Source: Halalkaliarchaeum desulfuricum
GTDB lineage: Archaea; Halobacteriota; Halobacteria; Halobacteriales; Haloferacaceae
Length of the DNA: 64,000 nt
NCBI RefSeq assembly: GCF_002952775.1
Contig: NZ_CP025066.1
Span: forward strand, 558,001-622,000
Direction of reading: 5' to 3'
A program made the position numbers and the translations under genes. The notes beneath the pieces are model-generated. The model did not search any database. It saw nothing but the letters and a program-made list of their open reading frames with translations, and was not told the DNA's origin. Positions within the stretch are counted from its first letter, which is position 1; the number at the start of each line of letters is the position of its first letter. Below, in pieces: positions 15 to 14,605 of the stretch.

Positions 15-1576
15 GTTTCAATCCCGTGCTGGGTTTTCTCCCTGCTGCGACCCACGAACCCGACGACGATCTCGGAGCGATCCTTTGGTTTCAATCCCGT
101 GCTGGGTTTTCTCCCTGCTGCGACACGTCCCGGATCAAACGGGAGACTCGACTTATCGGTTTCAATCCCGTGCTGGGTTTTCTCCCTGCTGCGACCCGAC
201 TCTCCCCGGAGCCGACGACGTCACTCCGATAGTTTCAATCCCGTGCTGGGTTTTCTCCCTGCTGCGACGGGACGTCGGATCCGACGGTCGTCGTCGAGCC
301 GATCGGTTTCAATCCCGTGCTGGGTTTTCTCCCTGCTGCGACTCAATACCGAGAGTCCGACGTATCCACCAAAGACGTTTCAATCCCGTGCTGGGTTTTC
401 TCCCTGCTGCGACACGAGCCTCCGGCTCGTTCGGGCAACAGCAGCCGGGTTTCAATCCCGTGCTGGGTTTTCTCCCTGCTGCGACTTTAGCTAAGACGGT
501 ACGACTCGACACAAACGCGGGTTTCAATCCCGTGCTGGGTTTTCTCCCTGCTGCGACACGACTGACGAAGACCAGGAGCGAGCGCGCAGGTTTCAATCCC
601 GTGCTGGGTTTTCTCCCTGCTGCGACGACAAGTCGGACCCGTGGAAAATAGCGATGTACTGTTTCAATCCCGTGCTGGGTTTTCTCCCTGCTGCGACTAT
701 GCGGGATCGACTCTCGCCGGACGCGGACGTCGAGTTTCAATCCCGTGCTGGGTTTTCTCCCTGCTGCGACTGGTCCGCATCACCGCGCGTTCGAGGCCGC
801 CGTGATGTTTCAATCCCGTGCTGGGTTTTCTCCCTGCTGCGACCAAAACAAGGGATTTATCCGAGACAAAGACGACGATGTTTCAATCCCGTGCTGGGTT
901 TTCTCCCTGCTGCGACACCCCGCAGAGGTACGTGCCTTCCGCGCGGCTGCTGTTTCAATCCCGTGCTGGGTTTTCTCCCTGCTGCGACCCAGCTGCGGCG
1001 GAGGTCGTGCGGCCCGACGAACAGCGTTTCAATCCCGTGCTGGGTTTTCTCCCTGCTGCGACTTCGGGGTCGTTTGTGTGCTCGAGCGAAAGTTCGTGTT
1101 TCAATCCCGTGCTGGGTTTTCTCCCTGCTGCGACCCAATCAACCCCGTTCAGGGGTCTGTTCCTTCCGTTGTTTCAATCCCGTGCTGGGTTTTCTCCCTG
1201 CTGCGACCCGGCTGAGAACCGGATTCGAGGGACGCTGCAAGAGGGTTTCAATCCCGTGCTGGGTTTTCTCCCTGCTGCGACTCTTTGTTGTCCTCGATCT
1301 GCGGGAGCATCAGCGGCGTTTCAATCCCGTGCTGGGTTTTCTCCCTGCTGCGACCCGACTCGCTCCCCGGCTCGGACCGAGACCGATCCGTGTTTCAATC
1401 CCGTGCTGGGTTTTCTCCCTGCTGCGACATCAGTGGATGTTGTGCAGTGCTCGGGCTGTGTTCTGTTTCAATCCCGTGCTGGGTTTTCTCCCTGCTGCGA
1501 CTCGATCGTGTTCAGTGTCTCCCCGAACTCCTCGACGCTGTTTCAATCCCGTGCTGGGTTTTCTCCCTGCTGCGAC
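15..1576 (-). CRISPR. CRISPR array 1, type I-D associated
   Basis: Twenty-two copies of a 37-base repeat start at 15, 88, 159, 232, 306, 377, 449, 521, 590, 661, 734, 807, 880, 952, 1026, 1098, 1171, 1245, 1318, 1392, 1465 and 1540. They are separated by 21 unique spacers of 32-38 bases. On the + strand the repeat begins GTTTCAAT and ends CTGCGAC. The reverse complement ends in ATTGAAAC, the usual crRNA 5' handle, and a leader lies on the right, so transcription runs leftward. Bases 1-14 look like part of another spacer, so the old end of the array probably lies outside the window. All copies looked identical by eye. Confidence 0.98.
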
Positions 1577-1684
1577 AGGGGGTCAAAATCCGTCTAGAGA
1601 GGCAATAAATCTTGTTCCAGTAGTGGATTTCGATGACTCGTTCGTGGACGGGGGCTATACCGCCCATTCAAAAAGGTCCACGAA
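1577..1684 (-). promoter_or_regulatory. Leader of CRISPR array 1
   Basis: This AT-richer stretch abuts the newest repeat of array 1. Read leftward it aligns without gaps, over 108 bases, with the leader of array 2. The 38 bases nearest the repeat differ at only three positions. It carries an inverted repeat, TTCGTGGAC at 1641-1649 and GTCCACGAA at 1676-1684, spaced by 26 bases. The csa3 stop codon lies 18 bases beyond it. The expected roles are the array promoter and the spacer-integration site; these are inferred from position and conservation. Confidence 0.85.
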
Positions 1685-1701
1685 GTCGTCCTTCCCTGAT
1701 G

Positions 1702-2352
1702 CTATTCCGATCGGCGAAGCAGACGACCAGTCTGAGACAGACAAACGTACTTCGTGTTGTTCTCGAACCGAGTATCAACGACTTCCACGCCGGCCAAATC
1801 ATCCACGTGGCGACTGACAGTGCTCTTACTCTGATCACTTTCACGCGCTAATTCAGGGAGTGCGATTTCCTCGTTGAACTCTGCGATCAAGTCGAAGGTG
1901 GCAACGGCACTCCGTGGGATCTGGGCCGTGAGATGTGGAATTGATACCGTCCGGACCTCCTGATCGACGTCAGTGTATTGGAAGGCACCGTCGATACTGG
2001 GAGCGTAAAGTACCGCCGCGATCATGAACGGGAGCAGCACCTCCCGCGCGCCGCCGCCGAAGTTGACGATCAGGTCCCGTTCGTCGTCGACCGCGTTCAG
2101 CACGTCACTACACTGCAACACGGTCGTCGTGAACTCACTCGTATCGACCCGTTCGGTCGAGACTGATGCGTCGGGCGCGATCTCTTCGACCATGTCCTCA
2201 ACGTACCCGACGGCATCTCGTGCCCTGTCCGTATTTCCCTCGCTGGCAGGACGAACGAGGACCACTCGATCACCATCGTCGATCCCGTGCTTGATTACCG
2301 GGCGTGTCACTCTCGTCTCGTGGAATCCCAGCGTTGAGACGTACGTTCGCAT
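1702..2352 (-). CDS. csa3: Csa3-type CARF/HTH transcriptional regulator
   Basis: The 216-residue protein has an N-terminal Rossmann-like CARF domain; the segment VNFGGGAREVLLP near residues 96-108 fits the conserved ligand-binding loop. A C-terminal winged helix follows, with LARESDQSKSTVSRHVDDL as the likely recognition region. Csa3 proteins control cas operons and spacer acquisition in archaea and may sense cyclic oligoadenylates. The gene is divergent from the cas operon, and an imperfect dyad lies between the two starts. It runs toward the leader of array 1, so read-through into that array is possible. No nuclease domain is attached. Confidence 0.85.
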   Translation of the reverse strand: MRTYVSTLGFHETRVTRPVIKHGIDDGDRVVLVRPASEGNTDRARDAVGYVEDMVEEIAPDASVSTERVDTSEFTTTVLQCSDVLNAVDDERDLIVNFGGGAREVLLPFMIAAVLYAPSIDGAFQYTDVDQEVRTVSIPHLTAQIPRSAVATFDLIAEFNEEIALPELARESDQSKSTVSRHVDDLAGVEVVDTRFENNTKYVCLSQTGRLLRRSE

Positions 2353-2389: not shown

Positions 2390-2407
2390 GTCGCACTTGA
2401 GTGGGAC
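2390..2407. promoter_or_regulatory. Imperfect dyad between csa3 and cas6
   Basis: GTCGCACTTGAGTGGGAC is an 18-base dyad with eight-base arms and one mismatched pair. It lies 38 bases from the csa3 start and about 35 bases before the cas operon TATA-like box. Its position fits an operator shared by the divergent promoters, with Csa3 as the obvious candidate. Binding is inferred. Confidence 0.4.
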
Positions 2408-2478: not shown

Positions 2479-3372
2479 ATGGCAAGTGAGTTAGCAAACC
2501 AGAACGACGGGGCGGGCCGTCTCCGTCGGATCGATCTCACGCTCCGTACCGAGAAGTCGTTTCCCGTGCCTGTATCGGACGGATACACCGTCTACAGCGC
2601 ACTCCTCGCGGTGCTCGAAGGCGTGGACGCATCCGTCAGCGAACGCGTTCACGACAGCGCGCTCGGGAGCTTGCACTCGAGTGGGTTGGTCGGAACGTTC
2701 GGCGGGAGTGATCGACCGCATCACAAGACGGTCCGATCGGGCGAGACGTACGATCTCTCGCTCGGCGTCGTCGATCCCGCCGACGAGGCGATCTTCCGGG
2801 CGCTCGTCTCGGGGCTGGTACTGGACGGGGATGCGATCGAACTCTCCCACGGGACGATGCGCGTCGAGAGCTTCGAGAGTGCGAACACCAGTCACGAGGA
2901 ACTGATTGACGAGGCAGGGGCCTACGACGATCCGACGATCGAGGTGACGTTCCGGACGCCGACGTGCATCGGGGGATCGGGCGACGTAACGACGATGTTC
3001 CCCCACCGCTGGGCCGTGTTCAACTCGCTGCTGGGGAAGTGGAACAAGTCCTGTCCCGAGGAGTTGCAACTGGACGTCGAGCGAACGGCGATCGAGGCCC
3101 ACGTGATCGAGAAACCCGATCCAGACCAGCGGAGCGGATACTGTCTCGATACCCACAGCGTGCTGGTGAGTCGCGGTGAAGACGAAGACGGCGAGAACCG
3201 TAACATCTTCAGTCAAGGCTTCACGGGCACGTGCGCGTACGAGTTCAAAGGTGCAGACGAGAGCCTGATGAACGCGTTGACGGCAGTGGCGCTGTTCGGG
3301 GAGTACAGTGGCGTGGGGGGTTCAGTTGCACGTGGTTGTGGGAGTGTAGAGGTGACAATTTCAAATGACTGA
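2479..3372 (+). CDS. cas6: CRISPR pre-crRNA endoribonuclease Cas6
   Basis: Cas6 cuts the repeat transcript eight bases before each spacer to give crRNAs with an AUUGAAAC handle, matching both arrays here. The 297-residue protein shows the family's C-terminal glycine-rich loop (GVGGSVARGCGSVEV, near residue 282). Histidines at about residues 58 and 66 could include the catalytic one. The ATG at 2479 is preferred over the upstream in-frame codon at 2401 because the TATA-like box lies between them. Its end overlaps the cas10d start by eight bases. It must handle two repeat variants, assuming no other Cas6 is present. Confidence 0.9.
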   Translation: MASELANQNDGAGRLRRIDLTLRTEKSFPVPVSDGYTVYSALLAVLEGVDASVSERVHDSALGSLHSSGLVGTFGGSDRPHHKTVRSGETYDLSLGVVDPADEAIFRALVSGLVLDGDAIELSHGTMRVESFESANTSHEELIDEAGAYDDPTIEVTFRTPTCIGGSGDVTTMFPHRWAVFNSLLGKWNKSCPEELQLDVERTAIEAHVIEKPDPDQRSGYCLDTHSVLVSRGEDEDGENRNIFSQGFTGTCAYEFKGADESLMNALTAVALFGEYSGVGGSVARGCGSVEVTISND

Positions 3373-5863
3373 CAAACGATCGCAAGAAGAGATTCTGGAA
3401 TCGATCCTCGGAAACGTACGCCAAGAATCTGGCGAAGAGACAGGCGGTGATCGATCGGTTGAAGAGATCGTACTGGAGGACTTTCGAACGTCAGTTGATC
3501 CACAGATCGTCAACGCCGGCTGGGGATTTGAACCTGCCAAAAGCGTCGAACATGGGAAAACGGACCAATCGCTCCTCAATCACGTTCGGAACGGCGTGTT
3601 CGTCCTTGCACAACTGAATGACGCTGTTCGTTCGCTCGACGGATACACGCTGGACGAGGACGATTTGCGTGCCGCCATCGCACTGTTCACGATCCACGAT
3701 ATTCACAAACTCGATCAGGAACGCGACGCAGACCCTCAGTCTCGTTTCGACATACCTACTGAAGAGGTACAACAATATGTCGAGACGTTTGGACTCGATG
3801 ACGTCGCGCCTGACCTCTCCCCCGAAGATTTCCGCTCGTGTGCGATCGATCATCACGACGACTGGACGGCGAATTACGATCAGACGACGCGTCGGTTCGA
3901 CGATCTCCGTCCATTCATTCGCGTCGCCGACGGCTTTGCGTCGTGTGACACTCCCGAAGCGGCAACCGACGGGTCCGTCCAGGCGGCAATCGATCGTGCG
4001 TATCTTAAGTCGGATTTCGAACTCCGCTATCACGTCCTCGACGACGTAAAAGGAATCCTGACGAATCTTCTCAATAGCGCGATTTCGGAACGTCTCGCTT
4101 CGTTCGATTACTATCCACTCACGATCTATCAAGATGGCTGTGTATACCTCGTTCCGGGAGAGGCGGACCGCCCGACGGTAGATCAAGAATTCGTCGGGGA
4201 TATCGTCGATCAGTTGCAGGTCAATATCCGGAATTCGCACCAGGCGTATGCGGAGTCTAGCGAACTGTCAGGGAATCTGGCAACGCGTTCTCAAGGATTT
4301 TATGGGATCAATGACCAGGAATTCTTCTATGCTGGGGCCGAGACAGTCGTCGGCGCAATAGTCCGCAAGGCCGTCGGGGACGCTGATCCCGAGGACGAAC
4401 CCACCGATAGCATGGCCGTCTCGATGGCGGGTTTGGAACGTCACCTCCCGATAGAGATCGAACGGACGCGCAGGCCCGTCGGCTACGCGAGACTGGCGTA
4501 CACCATCAAGCGAGCCTTCGTTGATCCGGTCCTCAAGGAAATCGACGACGATCGATCAGGCCTCGAAACCACGTGTGACGTGTTCGACGTCCCGCAGGCG
4601 GTCCATGAAGGGCTTCTCTCCGCAAGTGAGGACGACGATCTCTCGCCGACAGCCGGAGGAAAATGGGAGTACTCCTACGGAATCGGACAAGTACTGATCG
4701 AAGACGGTGTGATGTCCGTCGAAGCGATCAACGACCGGGTAACGACGGGTCTCGATCGACTCGCCGACGATTGGGTCGAAATCGTCGAAGAAGCCCACGC
4801 GGGGAACCTCCGGTCAGAACTCGAAGCATACGTCTCCGACGTGGTATCTATCGAGGGGCGTCCGATGCCCGAAAGCGACGCGGCACTCAGCGATCCGTTC
4901 GAGGAATACCACAACACGAGACGAGGGAAAACATGCGTTCTCTGCAACAGAGGGACGACGAGCACGCGCAAGAGCGATCTCGAAGCCCCGAAGTCACTGA
5001 CGACGCTCCAGGCGGGCTATTCGAATCACATCCCCGTGGACGCAGGCAAGCCCGACGACTTGCTCGCGTGTCTCCCTTGCCAGATCGAACTTTCCCTTCG
5101 GGAGACCGGTGCGTCTCGAAGAGAAGGGGGACGGCTCTTTTTTCACCTCATACCGGACTACTTCTATACGCCGCTGTCGTGGCGGTCTTACGACGACGTG
5201 CTGAGCGATTTCAGCGGCGAAAGTCGAATCGAACTCGGACGGCTGGCCGAAGCCGTTCTCTGGCTCACCGGTGATCTCGAAGCGACAGACGTCGAGGGAT
5301 TCGCGAGTGCGCTGTTCGAGACAGACTCCGGCCGACAGATGGCCGAGACCCTCGATCAGGGGTTCGATCCGGGATCACAGTTCGGGGCTCGAACGCTGGG
5401 CTATTACAAACCAGAGGACAATGAGACGGAGTTCCAGTTCTTCGGAGTGTACGTTGCCCTCGCAGTCGCGGCCTACGCCGGGCTGCGTGTGTACGTCTCG
5501 GAATCGCCGATTCCGGACATCAGAGGACGGGACTTCCAGACGTACGCCCGGATCGGAGCTGGATTCACTCAGGTCCAGGACTTCTACGGGTCCGAGATCT
5601 CGCTTTCGGACCTCGAATCTCGGTTGCGTGCTGCGTCGGCACTGATCAAACTCGGTTACGGTGCCGAGCGCAACGACGCGCTGTTCGCGAAGTTCCTCCG
5701 AGTCACTCGGAATCAGCTATTGCCCGGATCGCGATTGCTCAAGCGCATCGCGCAGGCCGATGATAGCAGTGACGCTCGTTACCTGCTGGAGGAAGCACGA
5801 GTGCTCGATCAGGAAACCGGCATCGACACGACGACCGACACATCCACACCAACCAACGAATGA
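3365..5863 (+). CDS. cas10d: Type I-D large subunit Cas10d (Csc3) with HD nuclease
   Basis: The 832-residue protein is the signature large subunit of subtype I-D. An N-terminal HD nuclease domain shows His73, His111-Asp112 and His163-His164. A zinc-finger pair, CVLC near residue 522 and ACLPC near 567, sits between the palm-like domains. In I-D the DNA-cutting HD domain is here and not in Cas3, which fits the HD-less helicase downstream. The usual C-terminal helical region is missing from this reading frame and appears to be the next gene; the two proteins sum to 979 residues, close to a full-length Cas10d. It overlaps both neighbours, so translation is probably coupled. Confidence 0.93.
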   Translation: MTDKRSQEEILESILGNVRQESGEETGGDRSVEEIVLEDFRTSVDPQIVNAGWGFEPAKSVEHGKTDQSLLNHVRNGVFVLAQLNDAVRSLDGYTLDEDDLRAAIALFTIHDIHKLDQERDADPQSRFDIPTEEVQQYVETFGLDDVAPDLSPEDFRSCAIDHHDDWTANYDQTTRRFDDLRPFIRVADGFASCDTPEAATDGSVQAAIDRAYLKSDFELRYHVLDDVKGILTNLLNSAISERLASFDYYPLTIYQDGCVYLVPGEADRPTVDQEFVGDIVDQLQVNIRNSHQAYAESSELSGNLATRSQGFYGINDQEFFYAGAETVVGAIVRKAVGDADPEDEPTDSMAVSMAGLERHLPIEIERTRRPVGYARLAYTIKRAFVDPVLKEIDDDRSGLETTCDVFDVPQAVHEGLLSASEDDDLSPTAGGKWEYSYGIGQVLIEDGVMSVEAINDRVTTGLDRLADDWVEIVEEAHAGNLRSELEAYVSDVVSIEGRPMPESDAALSDPFEEYHNTRRGKTCVLCNRGTTSTRKSDLEAPKSLTTLQAGYSNHIPVDAGKPDDLLACLPCQIELSLRETGASRREGGRLFFHLIPDYFYTPLSWRSYDDVLSDFSGESRIELGRLAEAVLWLTGDLEATDVEGFASALFETDSGRQMAETLDQGFDPGSQFGARTLGYYKPEDNETEFQFFGVYVALAVAAYAGLRVYVSESPIPDIRGRDFQTYARIGAGFTQVQDFYGSEISLSDLESRLRAASALIKLGYGAERNDALFAKFLRVTRNQLLPGSRLLKRIAQADDSSDARYLLEEARVLDQETGIDTTTDTSTPTNE

Positions 5864-6303
5864 AAGAAACAAGCGACACGATCTCGGAACTCGCGGCTCG
5901 CGCGTTCGACGTGATCCGGCCCGCGCCGGGCAACGACAAACCGTACGCGATCGAACGCGTGTTCCGCGAGAGCGTCAAGGCAGTCAAGGAGTTCGGTCCG
6001 CTGAATATCTCGCGGCAGGACGCGATCGACGCGGTCGCCGGACGGGTCGGGAAAGTCCCCGAACGGAGCGAGCAGGTGTATCGCGTCCCCCACGAGGACA
6101 GTACTGTGGGCGGCACATATGACGAGCGCGTCGAGCGATACGCGGAGTTCTTCGTCGATGAAGTATTGATCGGAATGTTCGACGGTAAACCATCACAATT
6201 GAAACGCCGATCGAACAACCTCGCCGACGGGTTCTATGCGGCAACGCTCCGCCTGCAGCGCGAACAGTTCGAAAACGACGCCGAAGATAACGACGACCAA
6301 TGA
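5860..6303 (+). CDS. cas11d: Probable separate small subunit Cas11d
   Basis: This 147-residue helical protein starts inside the cas10d stop (ATGA overlap) and its own stop overlaps the csc2 start in the same way. The stretch VERYAEFFVDEVL followed by an aromatic-rich helix (ADGFYAATLRLQREQFE) resembles, from memory, the extreme C-terminus of fused Cas10d proteins. That region is translated separately as Cas11d in cyanobacterial I-D complexes. Cas11d lines the Cascade belly and contacts the non-target strand. The alternative is an unrelated small subunit that filled the same slot. Its place in the operon is firm; the family assignment is a similarity judgement. Confidence 0.7.
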   Translation: MKETSDTISELAARAFDVIRPAPGNDKPYAIERVFRESVKAVKEFGPLNISRQDAIDAVAGRVGKVPERSEQVYRVPHEDSTVGGTYDERVERYAEFFVDEVLIGMFDGKPSQLKRRSNNLADGFYAATLRLQREQFENDAEDNDDQ

Positions 6304-7295
6304 TTGACCAAAACACCTACCCCGAACTCGAACCCGGTACCGTTTCCGCAGACGAAATGACGCTCAGACCGCGGAGCAACTTCGTGAACATTCTCGTCCT
6401 GCGTGAACTCGAAAGTCACGCCATCTTCACGACGAACGGAGAAGACGCAGACATCGCGACTGTAGCGCTGAAATCCGAGGACGGCCCGATGGATTACGCT
6501 CCTGGACTGATGTTTATGCGAAAACAGACGGGGAGCGATCGTCGGTTCGGCAAGGCCCTCCAGCGTGATCTCGATCTCTTCGACGAGGACGAAGACGAGT
6601 GCACGATGCAAGTCAACGAGATGTGCCAGGACTGCGTCGAATGTATCCTCTACGGGAGTGCAGCGAGTAGCGACGAGGGAAGTGACGTTTCGATCACTTC
6701 GCGGGTGATGTACGATACAGCGTATTCACTTCGAGACGCCAGTGTGGTGATCGACGAAAAGTTCCAGAACGCACCCGGTGGCGACTACGCGAAATCCGCC
6801 GAAGCGACAATCCGGGAGCCGGATTTCTTCGAGCCAGGAACGATGTTCCCCAGCGTCATTACGTTGCGGGATGTCACTCCAGCGGAAGTCGCGTTCGTAC
6901 TCGGAATCACAGCGAAGAACAAGCGCTATGGAGCCGCGACATCGCGCCTGGGCCGGGTGAACAACCGCATCCTCGGCGTGTACGTCGGGAGCGAAGAGGG
7001 GCCGGCGAACCTCGAACTCACTCGCGAAACGATCGCTCGACATCGAGCCGACGAGGAGACGGGTTACGAAACCACGATCGACGTAGTGATGGCCGAAGCA
7101 CTCGATCCGTCTCGCACGGCCGATCACGTCAGCAGCGCGTTCGAGGATGCCATCGACGCGCAAGGTCTCGACCTACAAGCGGTTTCGGAAGAAACCGTCG
7201 ATGACATCGTCGAGATAGCGACCGGCGACGACTTCGCGGACGTGCTCAACGAACAGCGCGATCACTCGAGAGCGTTCCTCGATCAGGCGGAGTAA
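6300..7295 (+). CDS. csc2: Type I-D Cascade backbone Cas7d (Csc2)
   Basis: Csc2 is the Cas7-family protein that polymerises along the crRNA spacer to form the I-D Cascade backbone. The 331-residue length is typical. A cysteine cluster at residues 101, 109, 112 and 115, ending in ILYGSA, matches the zinc-binding insert of Csc2. The segment GITAKNKRYGAATSRLGRVNN is the conserved RNA-facing region. The ATG overlaps the cas11d stop by four bases. Confidence 0.92.
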   Translation: MIDQNTYPELEPGTVSADEMTLRPRSNFVNILVLRELESHAIFTTNGEDADIATVALKSEDGPMDYAPGLMFMRKQTGSDRRFGKALQRDLDLFDEDEDECTMQVNEMCQDCVECILYGSAASSDEGSDVSITSRVMYDTAYSLRDASVVIDEKFQNAPGGDYAKSAEATIREPDFFEPGTMFPSVITLRDVTPAEVAFVLGITAKNKRYGAATSRLGRVNNRILGVYVGSEEGPANLELTRETIARHRADEETGYETTIDVVMAEALDPSRTADHVSSAFEDAIDAQGLDLQAVSEETVDDIVEIATGDDFADVLNEQRDHSRAFLDQAE

Positions 7296-7299
7296 AGGG

Positions 7300-8007
7300 A
7301 TGGACGTTCTCGAAGCGACCCTTCGGACACGCGGCGAAGTCACCTTCACGTCCCGGGAGGTGGGACGCCTGGCGGACACCGAGCCGTACATTCTCAACAC
7401 GGCGCTCTACTACGCGCTTGGCCTCGCGAGCGGTCGCTACGTGGACACGTCGTACGAGCCCACATACGTCGAAGACACTGCCGAGGTCACTGACGTGTAC
7501 GTCTCGCCTGCGGCCCCAGTATCAGGCTCGGCACCGAACTACGTCACGACGACCTATAATGCGACGAGCGATGAGTACGCAGAAGTGAATTATTCGGCAC
7601 AGGACGATCCGAACGCCAAACAGAATCTCCCATCCTACGGCCGGCGGCGATCACTCGCACACAGTACCCCACTCAGGTTTTTCGTCATCTCGCGCGGTCC
7701 TTCGGCTGATAAACTCGACGACCGATTACCGCAATACGTTCGACTGGGCAAAAAACGGGGAAAGGCTCGACTCGACATCCAACGTCGTTCCGCGACGAGA
7801 AAGTCTGGACAGTTCAGATTGAACCATCCAATCGGAGCGTACGACTACCCCACGCCACCGGAGGGAAACGTCGTCACGAAGTCGATGAAGCCGACACCGC
7901 TCGTGCTACAGGGCGACTATACGGGCAAGTACGTCAGTATCGATCGCGAAGACGACGATCGAGTTCGCTTCCCCGCTGACCTCACGTTCCTCGCCACCAA
8001 ACGATGA
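7300..8007 (+). CDS. csc1: Type I-D Cas5d (Csc1)
   Basis: Csc1 is the Cas5-family protein that caps the crRNA 5' handle and helps recognise the PAM. The 235-residue protein opens with a β-strand and the motif FTSREVG, followed by YILNTALYYALG, characteristic of Csc1. It starts four bases after the csc2 stop, behind an AAAGGGA sequence that could act as a ribosome binding site. This is the only junction in the operon without a start-stop overlap. Its stop overlaps the cas3 start by four bases. Confidence 0.9.
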   Translation: MDVLEATLRTRGEVTFTSREVGRLADTEPYILNTALYYALGLASGRYVDTSYEPTYVEDTAEVTDVYVSPAAPVSGSAPNYVTTTYNATSDEYAEVNYSAQDDPNAKQNLPSYGRRRSLAHSTPLRFFVISRGPSADKLDDRLPQYVRLGKKRGKARLDIQRRSATRKSGQFRLNHPIGAYDYPTPPEGNVVTKSMKPTPLVLQGDYTGKYVSIDREDDDRVRFPADLTFLATKR

Positions 8008-10109
8008 CAACACTCGATCTTTCGGGTGTGGCGTTGCAGACGCACGACGAGTCGTATCCGTTCGACGTGTCCCCGTTCGCTCATCAGCGGGAATTACAGC
8101 GATTGTTCGAAGAGAGGGATCGATTCGTCGCGGTCAACGACAGCCCGACAGGTGGCGGGAAAACGTCGTCCTGGTTGGCCCCGGTGTTCGCCAACGAGAT
8201 CGACCCGATCGCGATCTATCCGACGAATGCTCTCATCGCCGACCAACAGGAGGCGATCCAACGAAAAGTCGAAGAGACCGTCGATCACGACGTCGCAGTG
8301 TTGAAAGCGACTGCAGCGACACTATCCGAGAAAAGCGACGACTTCGGACCGACGTCACACGGAGCAGTACTCGACGATTGGCTTAGACAGGAGAAACGAT
8401 ACAATAATCAAGTGATTCTTCTCACGAATCCGGATATCTTCGTGATGATGCGTCGTGGGCTTTACCGTAAGGGATCCCGCGAGTACAAGGATTTCGAGGT
8501 GGCGGTAGTCGACGAGTTTCACCGTGCCGGTCGAAAAGAACAGAACACGCTCAGGTTTCTGCTCGACGAAATGCAGGCCGCAGACGAGGCGGTCGTCGCA
8601 CTTCGAAAGGTGGCGTTTCTCAGTGCAACGCCAGATCAGCGCCAAGAGCGACTGTTCGAGAACGCGATGGAAGCACCATACGTCCGCGTGACCGACCACG
8701 ACAGTCGAGAACGGAAGTCGTACACGGAGTCACCGGGTAATGAGTGGTATAGCGTAATGCCGCCGGTCGAACTCGACGTGCGCACCGCACCGACCTTCGG
8801 CACTGGAGAAATCCTTCACGAGGAAGCAGAAGACATACTCCGGTTCTGTCGGAGTGGTAGGACGGTCGTGATGCTCGACGGCATCCACGAAGTCGGCCAA
8901 GTCCACGCGTGGCTCGACGAAGAGATCGACGGCAACGTCGAACGGATCGACGGGTTTTATGGGGAAAACAAGGCAGAAAAGCTAGCTCGGTTCGACGTAC
9001 TCGTCAGCAATTCCGCAGTCGAAGTCGGCATCGACTTTGATGTCGATCGAATCCTATTCGCAGGCCACAACAGGGAAAGCTTCTTACAGCGTCTCGGCCG
9101 GCTGCGATCGGCTTCTGACTGGAAACAGGCACGCTGTTACGTCCCTCGGACAGTCGCGAATGCCCTGTCAGAATACGAGGGGCAGACGACCACACGGAGT
9201 GAACTCGATGATATCTTAGCCGATGCGTATCCCGATCCCCGCCAGCCTGCCACCTTTGACGCGAAGTATTCGGCGGCCGAGGCGTTCGAACATCTCGACG
9301 ATCGCCTTCGGAATGCATCTTCGGACGACCAGCAGGCGATTGAACAGTCGACACTCGATCGGATCAAGCGACACTTCGGTGTCGGTCCAGGAGCGGACTT
9401 TTCGCTTCAGGACATGGAACGGTTCACTGAGACGCTTGATTGGCGCGTATTGACTTCCTTACAGTGGTACCGGGGCGATAATATCCAAGCGCTCGTCTAC
9501 GATCGGACGAAAGATCGAGTCACAACCTACGACCTGTTCTATCTACTTCGATACGGAGATGTGAAATTTGTCGATCGAGACTCTTTCGAGCGGCTCGTTC
9601 CGTCGGATCAGCGAGCGAAAATCGATCGTCGCGAGCGATACGTTGACGGGTTCTGCGTGTACGACGGGACGATCGAGACAACTGATGAAGGATATGGTCG
9701 TAGTGTTTACTTCACTGGTGGTACGCTGAATGCCTGGATCGACGATACGTCCAACACCGGTCGAAAGCCCCAGCTCAAGTCCGGACTACAGATCGGTGTC
9801 GATCCGAACGGCAGCGGATCTCGTGTGCCGTCCATCACGAAAGTCAACGCCCGTCTGCGCGAGCGCGGCCAACGGGCGGACGCCGAGGAGTCCGGATTGG
9901 TGTGTTATGCGGTTAATGGCCCTCCGAGCCGGGTGAAACGCCAGTACGAACTTGACGACTTTTTCTTCCTCTATCCGATTCGGATACAAAATAAGGACAT
10001 GCATAGCCTTGCTATTGGAATCGATGCGCTCTATCTACACTGTCATGTCATCGAGCAAGAACAACAGTTGTCCGGCAGCGATGACTCTGATTTCCTCGAC
10101 AACTTATGA
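8004..10109 (+). CDS. cas3: Cas3' helicase, HD-less, type I-D
   Basis: This superfamily 2 DNA helicase unwinds target DNA once Cascade has formed an R-loop. In the 701-residue protein, motif I is SPTGGGKTSS (Lys53), motif II is DEFH at 170-173 and motif III is SAT at 207-209. A motif VI-like QRLGRLRSASD appears later. There is no HD domain, as expected for I-D, where Cas10d supplies the nuclease. It overlaps csc1 and cas4 by four bases each. Confidence 0.92.
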   Translation: MTTLDLSGVALQTHDESYPFDVSPFAHQRELQRLFEERDRFVAVNDSPTGGGKTSSWLAPVFANEIDPIAIYPTNALIADQQEAIQRKVEETVDHDVAVLKATAATLSEKSDDFGPTSHGAVLDDWLRQEKRYNNQVILLTNPDIFVMMRRGLYRKGSREYKDFEVAVVDEFHRAGRKEQNTLRFLLDEMQAADEAVVALRKVAFLSATPDQRQERLFENAMEAPYVRVTDHDSRERKSYTESPGNEWYSVMPPVELDVRTAPTFGTGEILHEEAEDILRFCRSGRTVVMLDGIHEVGQVHAWLDEEIDGNVERIDGFYGENKAEKLARFDVLVSNSAVEVGIDFDVDRILFAGHNRESFLQRLGRLRSASDWKQARCYVPRTVANALSEYEGQTTTRSELDDILADAYPDPRQPATFDAKYSAAEAFEHLDDRLRNASSDDQQAIEQSTLDRIKRHFGVGPGADFSLQDMERFTETLDWRVLTSLQWYRGDNIQALVYDRTKDRVTTYDLFYLLRYGDVKFVDRDSFERLVPSDQRAKIDRRERYVDGFCVYDGTIETTDEGYGRSVYFTGGTLNAWIDDTSNTGRKPQLKSGLQIGVDPNGSGSRVPSITKVNARLRERGQRADAEESGLVCYAVNGPPSRVKRQYELDDFFFLYPIRIQNKDMHSLAIGIDALYLHCHVIEQEQQLSGSDDSDFLDNL

Positions 10110-10714
10110 CGAAAGCGAGCTTTCGAGACGAACTCGTTCACGTGAGTGCCCTACAGGAATACGTATACTGTCCGCGTCGATACTACTACCAGCGCTATCA
10201 AGATCAGATCGGTACCACCTATGAGTTGGTTGACGGGCGCTCGAAACACGCTGCCCAGTCACGGCGAGGGGGGTGGACGACTGAACGCTATTTTCGTTCG
10301 GACAGCCTCGGATTGCACGGGAAGATTGACCTCATCGAGAGCGATAGAGGTACACTCACTCCGATCGAACGAAAGCGGGCTGAAAGCGGAGACTACTACC
10401 CCAGCGACGAGGTACAGATCGCGGCATACTGCATGTTGCTGGAAGATGCCATCGACGAAGCTGTGAACGTCGGCTACATCTATCTGTACTCGACTGATGA
10501 ACGTCATGCGATTCACATCACAGGAAAACACCGCAGCGCGGTACAGACGATCATCGATCGTATCCGATCCATGTCGATTAACTCAATTCCGTCGTTCACG
10601 AACAACACGAACAAATGTAACGGCTGTTCGGCGCGCGAGTATTGTATGCCAGCCGAAACGGCCCAACTCGAACCCGAACGCGCCCGTGGCACGGGGTGGG
10701 AGGATCACCCATGA
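10106..10714 (+). CDS. cas4: CRISPR-associated exonuclease Cas4
   Basis: Cas4 trims prespacers and helps select PAM-bearing DNA during adaptation. The 202-residue protein has Cys22 in the YVYCPRR motif and a C-terminal cysteine cluster (171, 174, 180), together enough to bind an iron-sulfur cluster. RecB-family nuclease motifs follow in order: HGKIDLIES, PIERKRAES and the QIAAY signature. It is translationally coupled to cas3 and cas1 through four-base overlaps. Confidence 0.93.
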   Translation: MTKASFRDELVHVSALQEYVYCPRRYYYQRYQDQIGTTYELVDGRSKHAAQSRRGGWTTERYFRSDSLGLHGKIDLIESDRGTLTPIERKRAESGDYYPSDEVQIAAYCMLLEDAIDEAVNVGYIYLYSTDERHAIHITGKHRSAVQTIIDRIRSMSINSIPSFTNNTNKCNGCSAREYCMPAETAQLEPERARGTGWEDHP

Positions 10715-11715
10715 AGGCGACGGAGGGCATGTTCGACGAGTCGGTCGTCTACGTCACCAAACAGGGAACGCAGGTCCGCACCGACGAGGGGCGGATCGTC
10801 GTCTGGGACGTCGACGCCGCCGACGATGAAGATCCGGAACTCGCCACCTATCCGAAAGAAAAGCTCGACACGATCAACGTCTTCGGGGGTGTCAACTTCA
10901 CCACGCCGTTCGTCGCCGAGGCCAACGAACACGGAATCGTCCTCAATTACTTCACCCAGAACGGCAAGTACCGCGGGAGTTTCGTCCCGGAGAAGAACAC
11001 GATCGCCGAGATCCGCCGGGCACAGTACGCACTCGATTACACCGAGGAACTCGCGATCGCCAAGGAGATGATCGCAGCGAAGATCCGCAACCAGCGGACG
11101 CTCCTCTCGCGGAAAGGCGTTCACGGGACGGACGTACTCAAGGACCTCGGCAAACGCGCCCGAAACGTATCGAACAAGGACGATCTCCGCGGAGCCGAAG
11201 GCGAGGCTGCCGAACGGTACTTCGATCGACTCGACGAGACACTCGTCTCGGGGTGGACCTTCGAGAAACGGACCAAACGCCCGCCGGAGGATCATATCAA
11301 CTCGCTGCTGTCGCTGACCTATACCTTCATGAAGAACGAGTCGATGAGCGCGCTCCGGCAATACAACCTGGACCCGTTTCTCGGTGTTCTGCACGCCGAT
11401 CGGCACGGGCGGCCGTCACTCGCACTCGATCTCGAAGAGGAGTTCCGCCCGATTTTCTGTGACGCGTTCGTGACGCGACTGATCAATCGAGGCGTGTTCA
11501 CTCACGACGACTTCTCAAAAGACAACCATCTGAGCGACGACGCGTTCAAAACGTACCTTTCGAAGTTCGACGGTTTTATGCAGGAGACGCTGACCCATCC
11601 CCACTTCGAGTACGAGGTCAGTCGGCGGAAGGCGGTCCGGCAGCAAGCGATCCTGCTACGGAAAGCGATCACAGGTGAACTCACCGAGTATCACGCGCTC
11701 TCGTTCGATCGATGA
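10711..11715 (+). CDS. cas1: CRISPR integrase Cas1
   Basis: Cas1 is the integrase that inserts new spacers at the leader end of the arrays. The 334-residue protein shows the metal-binding residues Glu163 in GAEGEAAERYF, His228 in VLHADRHGRPS and Glu243 in LDLEEEFRP. The ATG at 10711 was chosen because it overlaps the cas4 stop by four bases, the pattern of this operon. Both arrays have near-identical leader ends, so this single Cas1-Cas2 pair could serve both. Confidence 0.95.
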   Translation: MKATEGMFDESVVYVTKQGTQVRTDEGRIVVWDVDAADDEDPELATYPKEKLDTINVFGGVNFTTPFVAEANEHGIVLNYFTQNGKYRGSFVPEKNTIAEIRRAQYALDYTEELAIAKEMIAAKIRNQRTLLSRKGVHGTDVLKDLGKRARNVSNKDDLRGAEGEAAERYFDRLDETLVSGWTFEKRTKRPPEDHINSLLSLTYTFMKNESMSALRQYNLDPFLGVLHADRHGRPSLALDLEEEFRPIFCDAFVTRLINRGVFTHDDFSKDNHLSDDAFKTYLSKFDGFMQETLTHPHFEYEVSRRKAVRQQAILLRKAITGELTEYHALSFDR

Positions 11716-11990
11716 CCATGCGCCTAGCAATCGCTTACGATGTGAGTGACGATGCGAACCGCCGGCAGGTGTATCGAACCCTCCAGCGGTACGGGGCCTG
11801 GAAACAGTACAGCGTTTTCGAACTGGAAGTGAACAAAACCGAGCGCGTTGAACTGGAGGACGAACTCGAAGGGCATATCGATCCCGACGATGGGGATCGG
11901 ATTCGAATCTATCGGCTGTGTGAGTCCTGTTTGGACGATGTCTCCGAACTCGGGGCCGAGACGCCAGACGAACAGTCGAACGTGGTGTGA
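11712..11990 (+). CDS. cas2: CRISPR adaptation protein Cas2
   Basis: Cas2 is the dimeric scaffold of the Cas1-Cas2 integration complex. The 92-residue protein has the ferredoxin-like fold signature RLAIAYDVSDDANRRQVYRTL, with Asp10 after the first strand. Two in-frame starts are possible (ATGACCATG); the first overlaps the cas1 stop. It ends the operon, and the leader of array 2 begins two bases past its stop codon. Confidence 0.95.
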   Translation: MTMRLAIAYDVSDDANRRQVYRTLQRYGAWKQYSVFELEVNKTERVELEDELEGHIDPDDGDRIRIYRLCESCLDDVSELGAETPDEQSNVV

Positions 11991-11992
11991 TC

Positions 11993-12100
11993 TTCGTCGA
12001 CCTTTATGAAGTCTCTGTACGGCCCCAGTCGACGAACAAGAGGCTAATAATCACGGTGGGAGCAAGATTTATTGCCTCTCTCGGCGGATTTCGACCCCCT
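11993..12100 (+). promoter_or_regulatory. Leader of CRISPR array 2
   Basis: This 108-base region separates cas2 from the first repeat. It contains the inverted repeat TTCGTCGAC (11993-12001) and GTCGACGAA (12028-12036) with a 26-base spacer, then 64 bases to the repeat. These are the same spacings as in leader 1. An AT-rich element, AAGATTTATTG at 12065-12075, occurs unchanged in both leaders, and CTTTATGAA at 12002-12010 is another TATA-like candidate. Because the dyad abuts the cas2 stop it could also help end the cas transcript. Confidence 0.85.
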
Positions 12101-14605
12101 GTCGCAGGAGTCAGAAAACCCGAACCGGGATTGAAACAGTGATGGATACCTATATGTTGGGGATGCTTTAGGGAGTCGCAGGAGTCAGAAAACCCGAACC
12201 GGGATTGAAACGGATCCGATCGTCGTCTCTGAGTCGATCAATCATTGTGTCGCAGGAGTCAGAAAACCCGAACCGGGATTGAAACGGCTCGACAGCTTCG
12301 ATCACTCGCATCCCTCCCGACGTCGCAGGAGTCAGAAAACCCGAACCGGGATTGAAACATCGTTGAGGTCTTCGTCATCCGGGTCGTACTGGTGAGTCGC
12401 AGGAGTCAGAAAACCCGAACCGGGATTGAAACGGTGCTTGCGGCCGGCGCGTTCGCGGCCACCATCGCGTCGCAGGAGTCAGAAAACCCGAACCGGGATT
12501 GAAACAATGTGTGGGTTCCCGCTCTCCTGAAACTCGAGAACTGTCGCAGGAGTCAGAAAACCCGAACCGGGATTGAAACTATGCGATTTGGTGTGCTGTC
12601 TCAAAAATCGCTGGTGTCGCAGGAGTCAGAAAACCCGAACCGGGATTGAAACTCGCCGTCCGACGCATCTTCGGTGTGGTCACTGTCGTCGCAGGAGTCA
12701 GAAAACCCGAACCGGGATTGAAACTCGACCGCGTCCTCGAGGAGTCGATCGAGGTCTCTGTCGCAGGAGTCAGAAAACCCGAACCGGGATTGAAACAGCG
12801 AGTCGTCGATCGCGTCCGAGTCGATACTCGCGTCGCAGGAGTCAGAAAACCCGAACCGGGATTGAAACAAGAGCCGCGAGAGCGATCGCGAGGATCGCGA
12901 CGTCGCAGGAGTCAGAAAACCCGAACCGGGATTGAAACATCTCGAGCTCGACCGAGTCCGTTGTTACGTCCTCGTCGGTCGCAGGAGTCAGAAAACCCGA
13001 ACCGGGATTGAAACAGCTCTCTTTGCCTCCGGAGACCATCTCCCGTCTCGTCGCAGGAGTCAGAAAACCCGAACCGGGATTGAAACGTCGCAATCCTGAC
13101 GTCGGTACTTCCACACTCGGGAGTCGCAGGAGTCAGAAAACCCGAACCGGGATTGAAACCCGATGGCTCAATTCCTAAAACAGTCGATCCGAAGGTCGCA
13201 GGAGTCAGAAAACCCGAACCGGGATTGAAACGATCGAGGATGTCCAAGTGACCGGACTCGGCAGCGGTCGCAGGAGTCAGAAAACCCGAACCGGGATTGA
13301 AACAATTTGACCTCCTCTCCGTCGATATCGACCGGGACGTCGCAGGAGTCAGAAAACCCGAACCGGGATTGAAACAAAGCGAGCGTCTCCGGACCATCTC
13401 CCCGTCTCGGAGTCGCAGGAGTCAGAAAACCCGAACCGGGATTGAAACTGATCGAGGAAGTTCGAGTACACAGGCGCCCGACTGTCGCAGGAGTCAGAAA
13501 ACCCGAACCGGGATTGAAACCGCGACTTCGACGCCGAGATGGAGGCCGCCGAACGTCGCAGGAGTCAGAAAACCCGAACCGGGATTGAAACAGAGTAGCG
13601 GAAAATATTGCCGTTTGTCCACGCTGGTCGCAGGAGTCAGAAAACCCGAACCGGGATTGAAACATCTCGATGAGTGCAAACGAATCGACGATCGACCGGT
13701 CGCAGGAGTCAGAAAACCCGAACCGGGATTGAAACACCTGGAGATCGTCGACGGCGAGGCGTTCGAGCCGTCGCAGGAGTCAGAAAACCCGAACCGGGAT
13801 TGAAACGTTTACACGGGGACTTATACTTACGGGGTCGCGACACGTCGCAGGAGTCAGAAAACCCGAACCGGGATTGAAACTCTTCGATGTACTGCTCGTA
13901 CACGTTAACCGTGTCGCAGGAGTCAGAAAACCCGAACCGGGATTGAAACCGATCATCGAGCCGTTCAATGATACGGCACCGTCAGGTCGCAGGAGTCAGA
14001 AAACCCGAACCGGGATTGAAACATCGGCGTCCGGCGGTTCGCGTTTTTCGGGCGAACGGTCGCAGGAGTCAGAAAACCCGAACCGGGATTGAAACGCTTT
14101 GTCCTCGAGACTGGGCAGTTCACGATCGTGTCGCAGGAGTCAGAAAACCCGAACCGGGATTGAAACACGTATCACGAGCGGATCTATTCGGAGCTGTGGG
14201 GCGGTCGCAGGAGTCAGAAAACCCGAACCGGGATTGAAACCTCCAGCCGGTCGCTTTCCGAGCTGTAAAACCGGAGTCGCAGGAGTCAGAAAACCCGAAC
14301 CGGGATTGAAACAGCATGAGGCTATCACGCCGCGCGAAGATACAGAAGAGTCGCAGGAGTCAGAAAACCCGAACCGGGATTGAAACTGCTGACCTGATCG
14401 CCACGGAAGGCAACACCGGCCCGTCGCAGGAGTCAGAAAACCCGAACCGGGATTGAAACCGAGAGTGAACGATCTGCGCGTCGAGATCGCTGTCGTCGCA
14501 GGAGTCAGAAAACCCGAACCGGGATTGAAACCGATCGCGATCGGCCTCGGATGGGTTGAACCGGTCGTGTCGCAGGAGTCAGAAAACCCGAACCGGGATT
14601 GAAAC
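12101..14605 (+). CRISPR. CRISPR array 2, type I-D associated
   Basis: Thirty-five intact 37-base repeats begin GTCGCAGGAGTC and end GGGATTGAAAC. They are separated by 34 spacers of 32-39 bases, with one more spacer (14606-14640) before a degenerate repeat. The ATTGAAAC end and the leader on the left give rightward transcription. The repeat differs from that of array 1 at positions 8, 11, 12 and 22-25. Here CCCG and CGGG can pair around an AAC loop just before the handle; in array 1 only CCC and GGG pair. Spacers 13 and 18 resemble each other. Confidence 0.98.

Follow-up and report, generated by a model that had tools for sequence, protein, structure and literature searches.

The CRISPR locus and its two leaders

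The window, the whole 64,000-nucleotide stretch of Halalkaliarchaeum desulfuricum DNA analysed here, carries a haloarchaeal type I-D CRISPR locus, for which Halorhabdus amylolytica is the nearest among the named records (Cas1 94% identical). The csa3 and cas genes lie between two arrays, each preceded by a short leader. Both leaders adjoin cas4-cas1-cas2 of the Cas1d clade and arrays of 37-bp repeats, which places them among type I-D leaders. The features of the locus are as follows.

15..1576, minus strand: CRISPR array 1, 22 repeats of 37 bp visible; continues past the window start
1577..1701, minus strand: leader 1, from array 1 to the csa3 stop codon
1577..1582, minus strand: CCCCCT at the leader 1-repeat junction (columns -6 to -1 near invariant)
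1605..1616, minus strand: promoter-like BRE/TATA block of array 1 (-40 to -29), from the leader consensus; putative promoter role
1641..1649, minus strand: leader 1 arm 2 (proximal), GTCCACGAA as minus strand, 64 bp (1577-1640) before the repeat ending at 1576
1650..1675, minus strand: leader 1 dyad interior, 26 bp, with TTTWTNAA and TGTAYAG blocks conserved by column counts
1676..1684, minus strand: leader 1 arm 1 (distal), TTCGTGGAC as minus strand
1702..2352, minus strand: csa3, CARF and winged-helix regulator (PF22662, 4.6e-16; TIGR01884 above cut-off)
2390..2407, no strand: 18-bp palindrome GTCGCACTTGAGTGGGAC of the csa3-cas6 promoter, candidate Csa3 operator
2479-11990, plus strand: cas6 to cas2 gene block
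10106..10714, plus strand: cas4 (profile match)
10711..11715, plus strand: cas1, type I-D clade (profile match)
11718..11990, plus strand: cas2 (profile match)
11991..12100, plus strand: leader 2, from the cas2 stop codon to array 2
11993..12001, plus strand: leader 2 arm 1 (distal), TTCGTCGAC
12002..12027, plus strand: leader 2 dyad interior, 26 bp
12028..12036, plus strand: leader 2 arm 2 (proximal), GTCGACGAA, 64 bp (12037-12100) before the repeat at 12101
12061..12072, plus strand: promoter-like BRE/TATA block of array 2 (-40 to -29), from the consensus; putative promoter role
12095..12100, plus strand: CCCCCT at the leader 2-repeat junction
12101..14605, plus strand: CRISPR array 2, 35 repeats of 37 bp

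Within the gene block, Cas10d/Csc3 (3365-6303) is split over two overlapping open reading frames, the first of which (3365-5863) covers positions 1-781 of the Cas10d profile and the second (5860-6303) positions 823-946. This match suggests that the second frame may be a separate small-subunit-like gene. A comparable gap is present ahead of csc2 in L005, and H. lacusprofundi has a single long cas10d.

In related loci, csa3, cas6, cas4, cas1 and cas2 accompany the dyad leader whichever effector genes are present. The co-occurrence of csa3, found in all complete haloarchaeal loci examined, is as tight as that of cas1. Several loci (L006, L008, L013, L015, L060, L062, L065 and others) share csa3-cas6-cas4-cas1-cas2 and the leader, with no match to cas10d and only weak matches to csc2 and cas3; judged from these matches, their effector module is a different type I module.

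Geometry and distribution of the leader dyad

In both window leaders the coordinates confirm the arrangement originally described: two 9-bp arms with a 26-bp gap, the proximal one ending exactly 64 bp before the first repeat, so that, as noted, the arms lie more than 60 bases from the integration point. Within the 3.3-Mb genome, a search allowing up to three mismatches finds the zero-mismatch arm-N26-arm arrangement in these two leaders only. Leaders were sampled from 16 loci identified by Cas1 homology in genome contigs and from 42 genomes of the same order that encode a close Cas1; after calling of the array starts and removal of those internal to arrays, 69 distinct leaders were kept. An inverted repeat is present in the distal leader of this set, with an arm gap of 26 bp in 68 of the 69 (one of them, L097+, read by eye) and of 27 bp in L094. 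The distance from dyad to repeat is 64 bp in approximately 67, the other two measuring 63 and 65 bp depending on where the repeat start is called. The recurrence of the spacing in 68 of 69 distinct leaders is far above chance.

The two inverted copies of the half-site consensus TWCRTSGAC are 35 bp apart centre to centre, such that the dyad spans 44 bp in total and its outer edge lies 108 bp from the junction. In the column counts from the 69 leaders, the arm columns are near invariant and the 20 bp of upstream flank carry approximately 0-0.3 bits. Further conserved blocks are TTTWTNAA and TGTAYAG within the dyad, AGAAA..TTTAT at -40 to -29, an A/T block at -13 to -10 and ACCCCCT at the junction. 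The stretch of approximately 24 bp between the proximal arm and the BRE is mostly at 0-0.3 bits, with single higher columns (for example T at -50), and its length is constant. A nearly unconserved sequence that does not change in length points to selection on distance, and selection for the dyad at a fixed spacing, as originally proposed, is thus strongly supported.

The block at -40 to -29 we take to be a haloarchaeal BRE/TATA look-alike. It is located between dyad and repeat in nearly all leaders, and its TATA part is present in 98 of 103. Should this block serve as the array promoter, the dyad would precede it and probably be absent from the pre-crRNA, which makes the leader RNA hairpin suggested originally unlikely. 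In haloarchaea the dyad also keeps an equally constant distance to the promoter-like block, and it may therefore act in transcription instead.

A search with the 44-bp dyad pattern at up to three mismatches against 392 genomes of the order retrieved 44 further copies, mostly away from the loci already collected. All 44 precede a CRISPR repeat; the distance is exactly 64 bp for 42 of them and 65 bp for the remaining two. Of the matches with at most two mismatches, all that were retrieved or that coincide with leaders already collected are CRISPR leaders, whereas a few three-mismatch matches outside the 44 retrieved copies (for example in G200, G274, G371, G387 and G152) do not resemble the element. 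Within the search made, the dyad is confined to CRISPR leaders. A shorter half-element pattern matched most genomes and was rejected as uninformative.

The retrieved copies include orphan arrays, some with a different repeat; a repeat with an unrelated start (CTTTCAACTGTGCCAGC...) lies behind the dyad leader in L167-L170, L172, L175, L176, L181, L183 and L184. The dyad pattern therefore detects orphan arrays and flags leaders regardless of repeat type. These arrays also bear on whether the element could be a transcription terminator or spacer for the upstream csa3 and cas2, as might be imagined from the window, where the dyad begins 2 bp after the cas2 stop codon and 17 bp after that of csa3. 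Such a function predicts no constraint on spacing relative to the repeat, yet the element occurs at an unchanged repeat distance in orphan arrays for which neither csa3 nor cas2 is matched within approximately 2 kb, and we regard this explanation as scarcely credible.

Dyads are also intact in three genomes, G165, G260 and G239, with matches to neither an I-D-type Cas1 nor Csa3_N. The reader of the element could be host-encoded, or the arrays may have been orphaned recently. G165, which is 99% complete, has seven dyad leaders (L160-L166), and csa3-like remnants lie close to two of them.

Outside the haloarchaea, Candidatus Methanohalarchaeum, a member of a different archaeal class with a Cas1 67% identical, has TTCATGGAC and GTTCATGAA separated by 26 bp and located 64 bp from the repeat. 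Its locus has no csa3; the search found only weak HFX_2341-like CARF proteins, approximately 70 kb away. Other relatives in the phylum (Cas1 approximately 57-68% identical) have altered arms, recognisable to weak, at the -108/-65 offset: TTCATGGAC/GTCCATTAT in L120, TTCCTGAAT/GTTCAAGAT in L123, TTCCTGAAT/GTCTCTGAA in L121 and ATCATGCCT/ACCCATGAT (ATCATG..CATGAT) in L126. These distant cases are weaker than the haloarchaeal set, since they comprise few sequences read at a preset offset. In L124-L126 the arm offset is retained and no BRE/TATA block at -40 to -29 is seen by eye. The dyad is not visible in the I-B-type leaders L115-L118 and was not found in the cyanobacterial type I-D leaders of Synechocystis, Anabaena and Gloeothece.

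Some of these observations relate to the idea that the dyad is a site for a chromatin protein or transcription factor encoded by the host, which would control the array promoter and play no part in adaptation. Consistent with this are the fixed distance from the dyad to the BRE/TATA-like block and the dyads in genomes with no I-D Cas1 or Csa3_N match. However, a general regulator would be expected to have other targets, and the checked matches with at most two mismatches in the 392 genomes are all CRISPR leaders; moreover, the junction offset is kept in L124-L126, where the TATA block was not seen. We therefore consider such a host factor quite improbable.

Symmetry and base pairing of the arms

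The two window leaders differ by a C/G swap in both arms that preserves complementarity, which the original prediction took to imply selection for a dyad. The relatives do not support the swap as a sign of selected base pairing: position 6, where it occurs, can be C or G in either arm. Of 68 distinct dyads, 36 are complementary at this position, with no significant association between C and G across the arms (Fisher p=0.31). In a wider set that includes orphan-array leaders, the 96 leaders with C or G in both arms comprise 18 C-G, 48 G-C, 20 C-C and 10 G-G combinations, such that 30, or about a third, are mismatched; here the association is modestly significant, with p at approximately 0.03 once the set is thinned to below 70-75% identity. 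In 51 pairs of sister leaders, position 6 changes in one arm in 18 cases and in both arms in 6 (p=0.09), and over all arm positions one-sided changes number 57 versus 11 two-sided. The double change of the window is also seen in approximately 16% of all leader pairs, and is thus unremarkable alone. Alignment of related leaders, the check proposed with the original prediction, hence revealed unpaired changes in the arms, the very outcome that had been named as contrary to it.

The other arm positions behave differently from one another. At position 4, arm 1 carries either G or A, and 22 of 97 dyads have an A-C mismatch there. Position 2 (T/A) changes in step across the arms, the same 97 dyads comprising 81 T..A, 12 A..T and 4 A..A. 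No residue of Csa3, Cas1, Cas2, Cas4 or Cas6 that convincingly tracks the T/A state of position 2 was found. The best column, the last residue of Cas1, which is lysine in 8 of 8 A-type and 1 of 31 T-type sequences, was rejected as a candidate, being confounded by kinship and lying outside any obvious DNA-reading site.

Perfect arms in the window, together with a covariation score above 500 of 500 shuffles and above slid controls, would be expected of a selected stem, formed either as a leader RNA hairpin or as a DNA cruciform, but kinship alone can produce such a score without structure. Indeed, stem pairing is not kept across relatives. Although 89.6% of cells are paired in a count over 84 sequences, position 6 is unpaired in 34 (40%) and position 4 in 23 (27%), and only 21 of 68 dyads are complementary at all nine positions. 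The fold z-scores are modest (-1.7 and -1.0), and the dyad lies upstream of the putative promoter. With the preponderance of one-sided changes among sister pairs, the base-paired structure is largely refuted and we regard it as very improbable.

Rather, both arms follow one degenerate profile and are as a rule loosely alike, with strict pairing unnecessary. Arms that are alike without obligatory pairing fit two half-sites for one protein better than a stem, and we suggest that the pairing argument should be replaced by one of symmetric protein recognition. Thus, of the explanations initially offered, a protein operator or Cas1-Cas2 guide is retained as the best class, while the inference of base pairing and the RNA hairpin are not.

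Candidate readers and a proposed role in spacer acquisition

We suggest that the adaptation module uses the dyad as a two-part protein-recognition site in the distal leader, one that marks the first repeat for insertion by Cas4-Cas1-Cas2, a proposal to which we give roughly even credence. The two inverted TWCRTSGAC half-sites around the conserved A/T-rich and TGTAYAG interior would be contacted by a protein or complex with two-fold symmetry, which, placed at a fixed 64 bp (108 bp from the outer edge) from the junction, would mark the first repeat, where Cas4-Cas1-Cas2 would then insert new spacers. We infer that the reader is a protein, either the integrase or an accessory docking factor, and that the step concerned is integration-site selection; Csa3, a protein of the host and the integrase itself are all candidate readers. 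The most likely role of the dyad appears to be recognition of the leader during spacer acquisition, given that the 9-26-9 and 64-bp geometry is held across the unconserved stretch of approximately 24 bp, that it is kept in Ca. Methanohalarchaeum and, with altered arms at the same offset, elsewhere, and that the checked matches with up to two mismatches are all CRISPR leaders, orphan arrays included. In addition, csa3, cas6, cas4, cas1 and cas2 are constant despite differing effector genes, the offset is kept in L124-L126 without a visible BRE/TATA block, and the arms share their degenerate profile without strict pairing. Against this reading, csa3 co-occurs with the dyad as tightly as cas1 does, dyads are found in G165, G260 and G239, and half-sites 35 bp apart are wide for one regulator dimer.

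For the question of how archaeal Cas1-Cas2 finds the leader-repeat junction without IHF (PMC5815122, PMC9456107), a near-invariantly spaced element in many haloarchaeal loci and another archaeal class offers a concrete experimental target. In S. solfataricus, Cas1-Cas2 requires a long leader and host factors, and an IHF-type protein has not been reported (PMC5815122). The type I-E and I-F systems, in which an IHF site and an upstream integrase-anchoring motif at set distances send Cas1-Cas2 to the first repeat (PMC9456107, PMC5815122), are similar in principle, but the haloarchaeal dyad is located farther upstream of the junction. An archaeal counterpart, in which bending of the A/T-rich, TATA-like interior by a protein brings the arms to a two-fold Cas4-Cas1-Cas2, would provide type I-D integrases with a repeat-independent ruler of 64/108 bp; we consider this specific form of the proposal unlikely. 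According to the review PMC10212523, cyanobacterial I-D leaders, such as that of Synechocystis, contain conserved motifs I-III that raise spacer uptake. While the type I-D leader and its uptake-enhancing motifs are shared features, the Synechocystis leader has other inverted words, for example TTTTGGCA..TGCCAAA at approximately -196 to -145, that match the dyad in neither sequence nor offset. A related word is present in the Anabaena leader and none was seen in Gloeothece. We found no description of the dyad in the openly accessible literature searched.

A tentative alternative, which we regard as possible but doubtful, is that Csa3 binds the dyad as its operator and controls pre-crRNA transcription, adaptation or both, like Sulfolobus Csa3a. 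The presence of csa3 in every complete haloarchaeal locus examined, and in G481 approximately 5 kb past cas1, is consistent with this. In S. islandicus, Csa3a binds leader-distal motifs, and mutation of the bound motif (-143 to -94) reduces acquisition, for the efficiency of which the site is required (PMC9456107). The reported Csa3a site begins with TTCNT and ends with GAAA (PMC4333418). Similarly, in M. mazei the Csa3-like CARF protein MM_0565, a CARF/winged-helix dimer, contacts the distal 70 nt of a 108-nt leader part that is conserved, with no binding to nt 38-108 (PMC7465815). The dyad would be expected in this distal half, although the M. mazei subtypes differ from type I-D and the comparison is by published description.

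At the csa3-cas6 promoter, however, a different palindrome is found. GTTGCA-N6-TGCAAY matches at least 9 of 12 positions in 34 of 42 loci, against 6% in shuffles, and in 0 of 69 leaders; most related loci have it at a nearly fixed spacing to the start of csa3. Conversely, dyad half-sites in the 42 csa3-cas6 intergenic regions are at chance level (8 seen, 8.9 expected), and the Ca. Methanohalarchaeum locus has the dyad and lacks csa3. The promoter palindrome is a candidate Csa3 autoregulatory site and, by analogy, more likely to be bound by Csa3 than the leader dyad, since it shares its 18-bp length with CAPPa of Sulfolobales, a compact palindrome found also at adaptation-gene promoters (PMC8699464). 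The dyad resembles the type I-A Csa3a motif and CAPPa in being an archaeal distal-leader inverted repeat of a system with csa3. It differs from CAPPa in that it is not a compact element of approximately 18 bp but 44 bp wide, with a 26-bp gap between its arms in 68 of 69 leaders, and in that, within the search made, it is restricted to leaders, at an exact repeat distance, with the separate palindrome at the csa3-cas6 promoter and no enrichment of its own half-sites there. As for csa3 itself, it accompanies the dyad in every complete haloarchaeal locus examined and was not found with it in the Methanohalarchaeum locus and several orphan-array genomes. In L066/L130, on pHLAC01 of Halorubrum lacusprofundi, the csa3 match covers a short stretch only and an ISH6-like transposase adjoins cas6; this csa3 may have been truncated by insertion.
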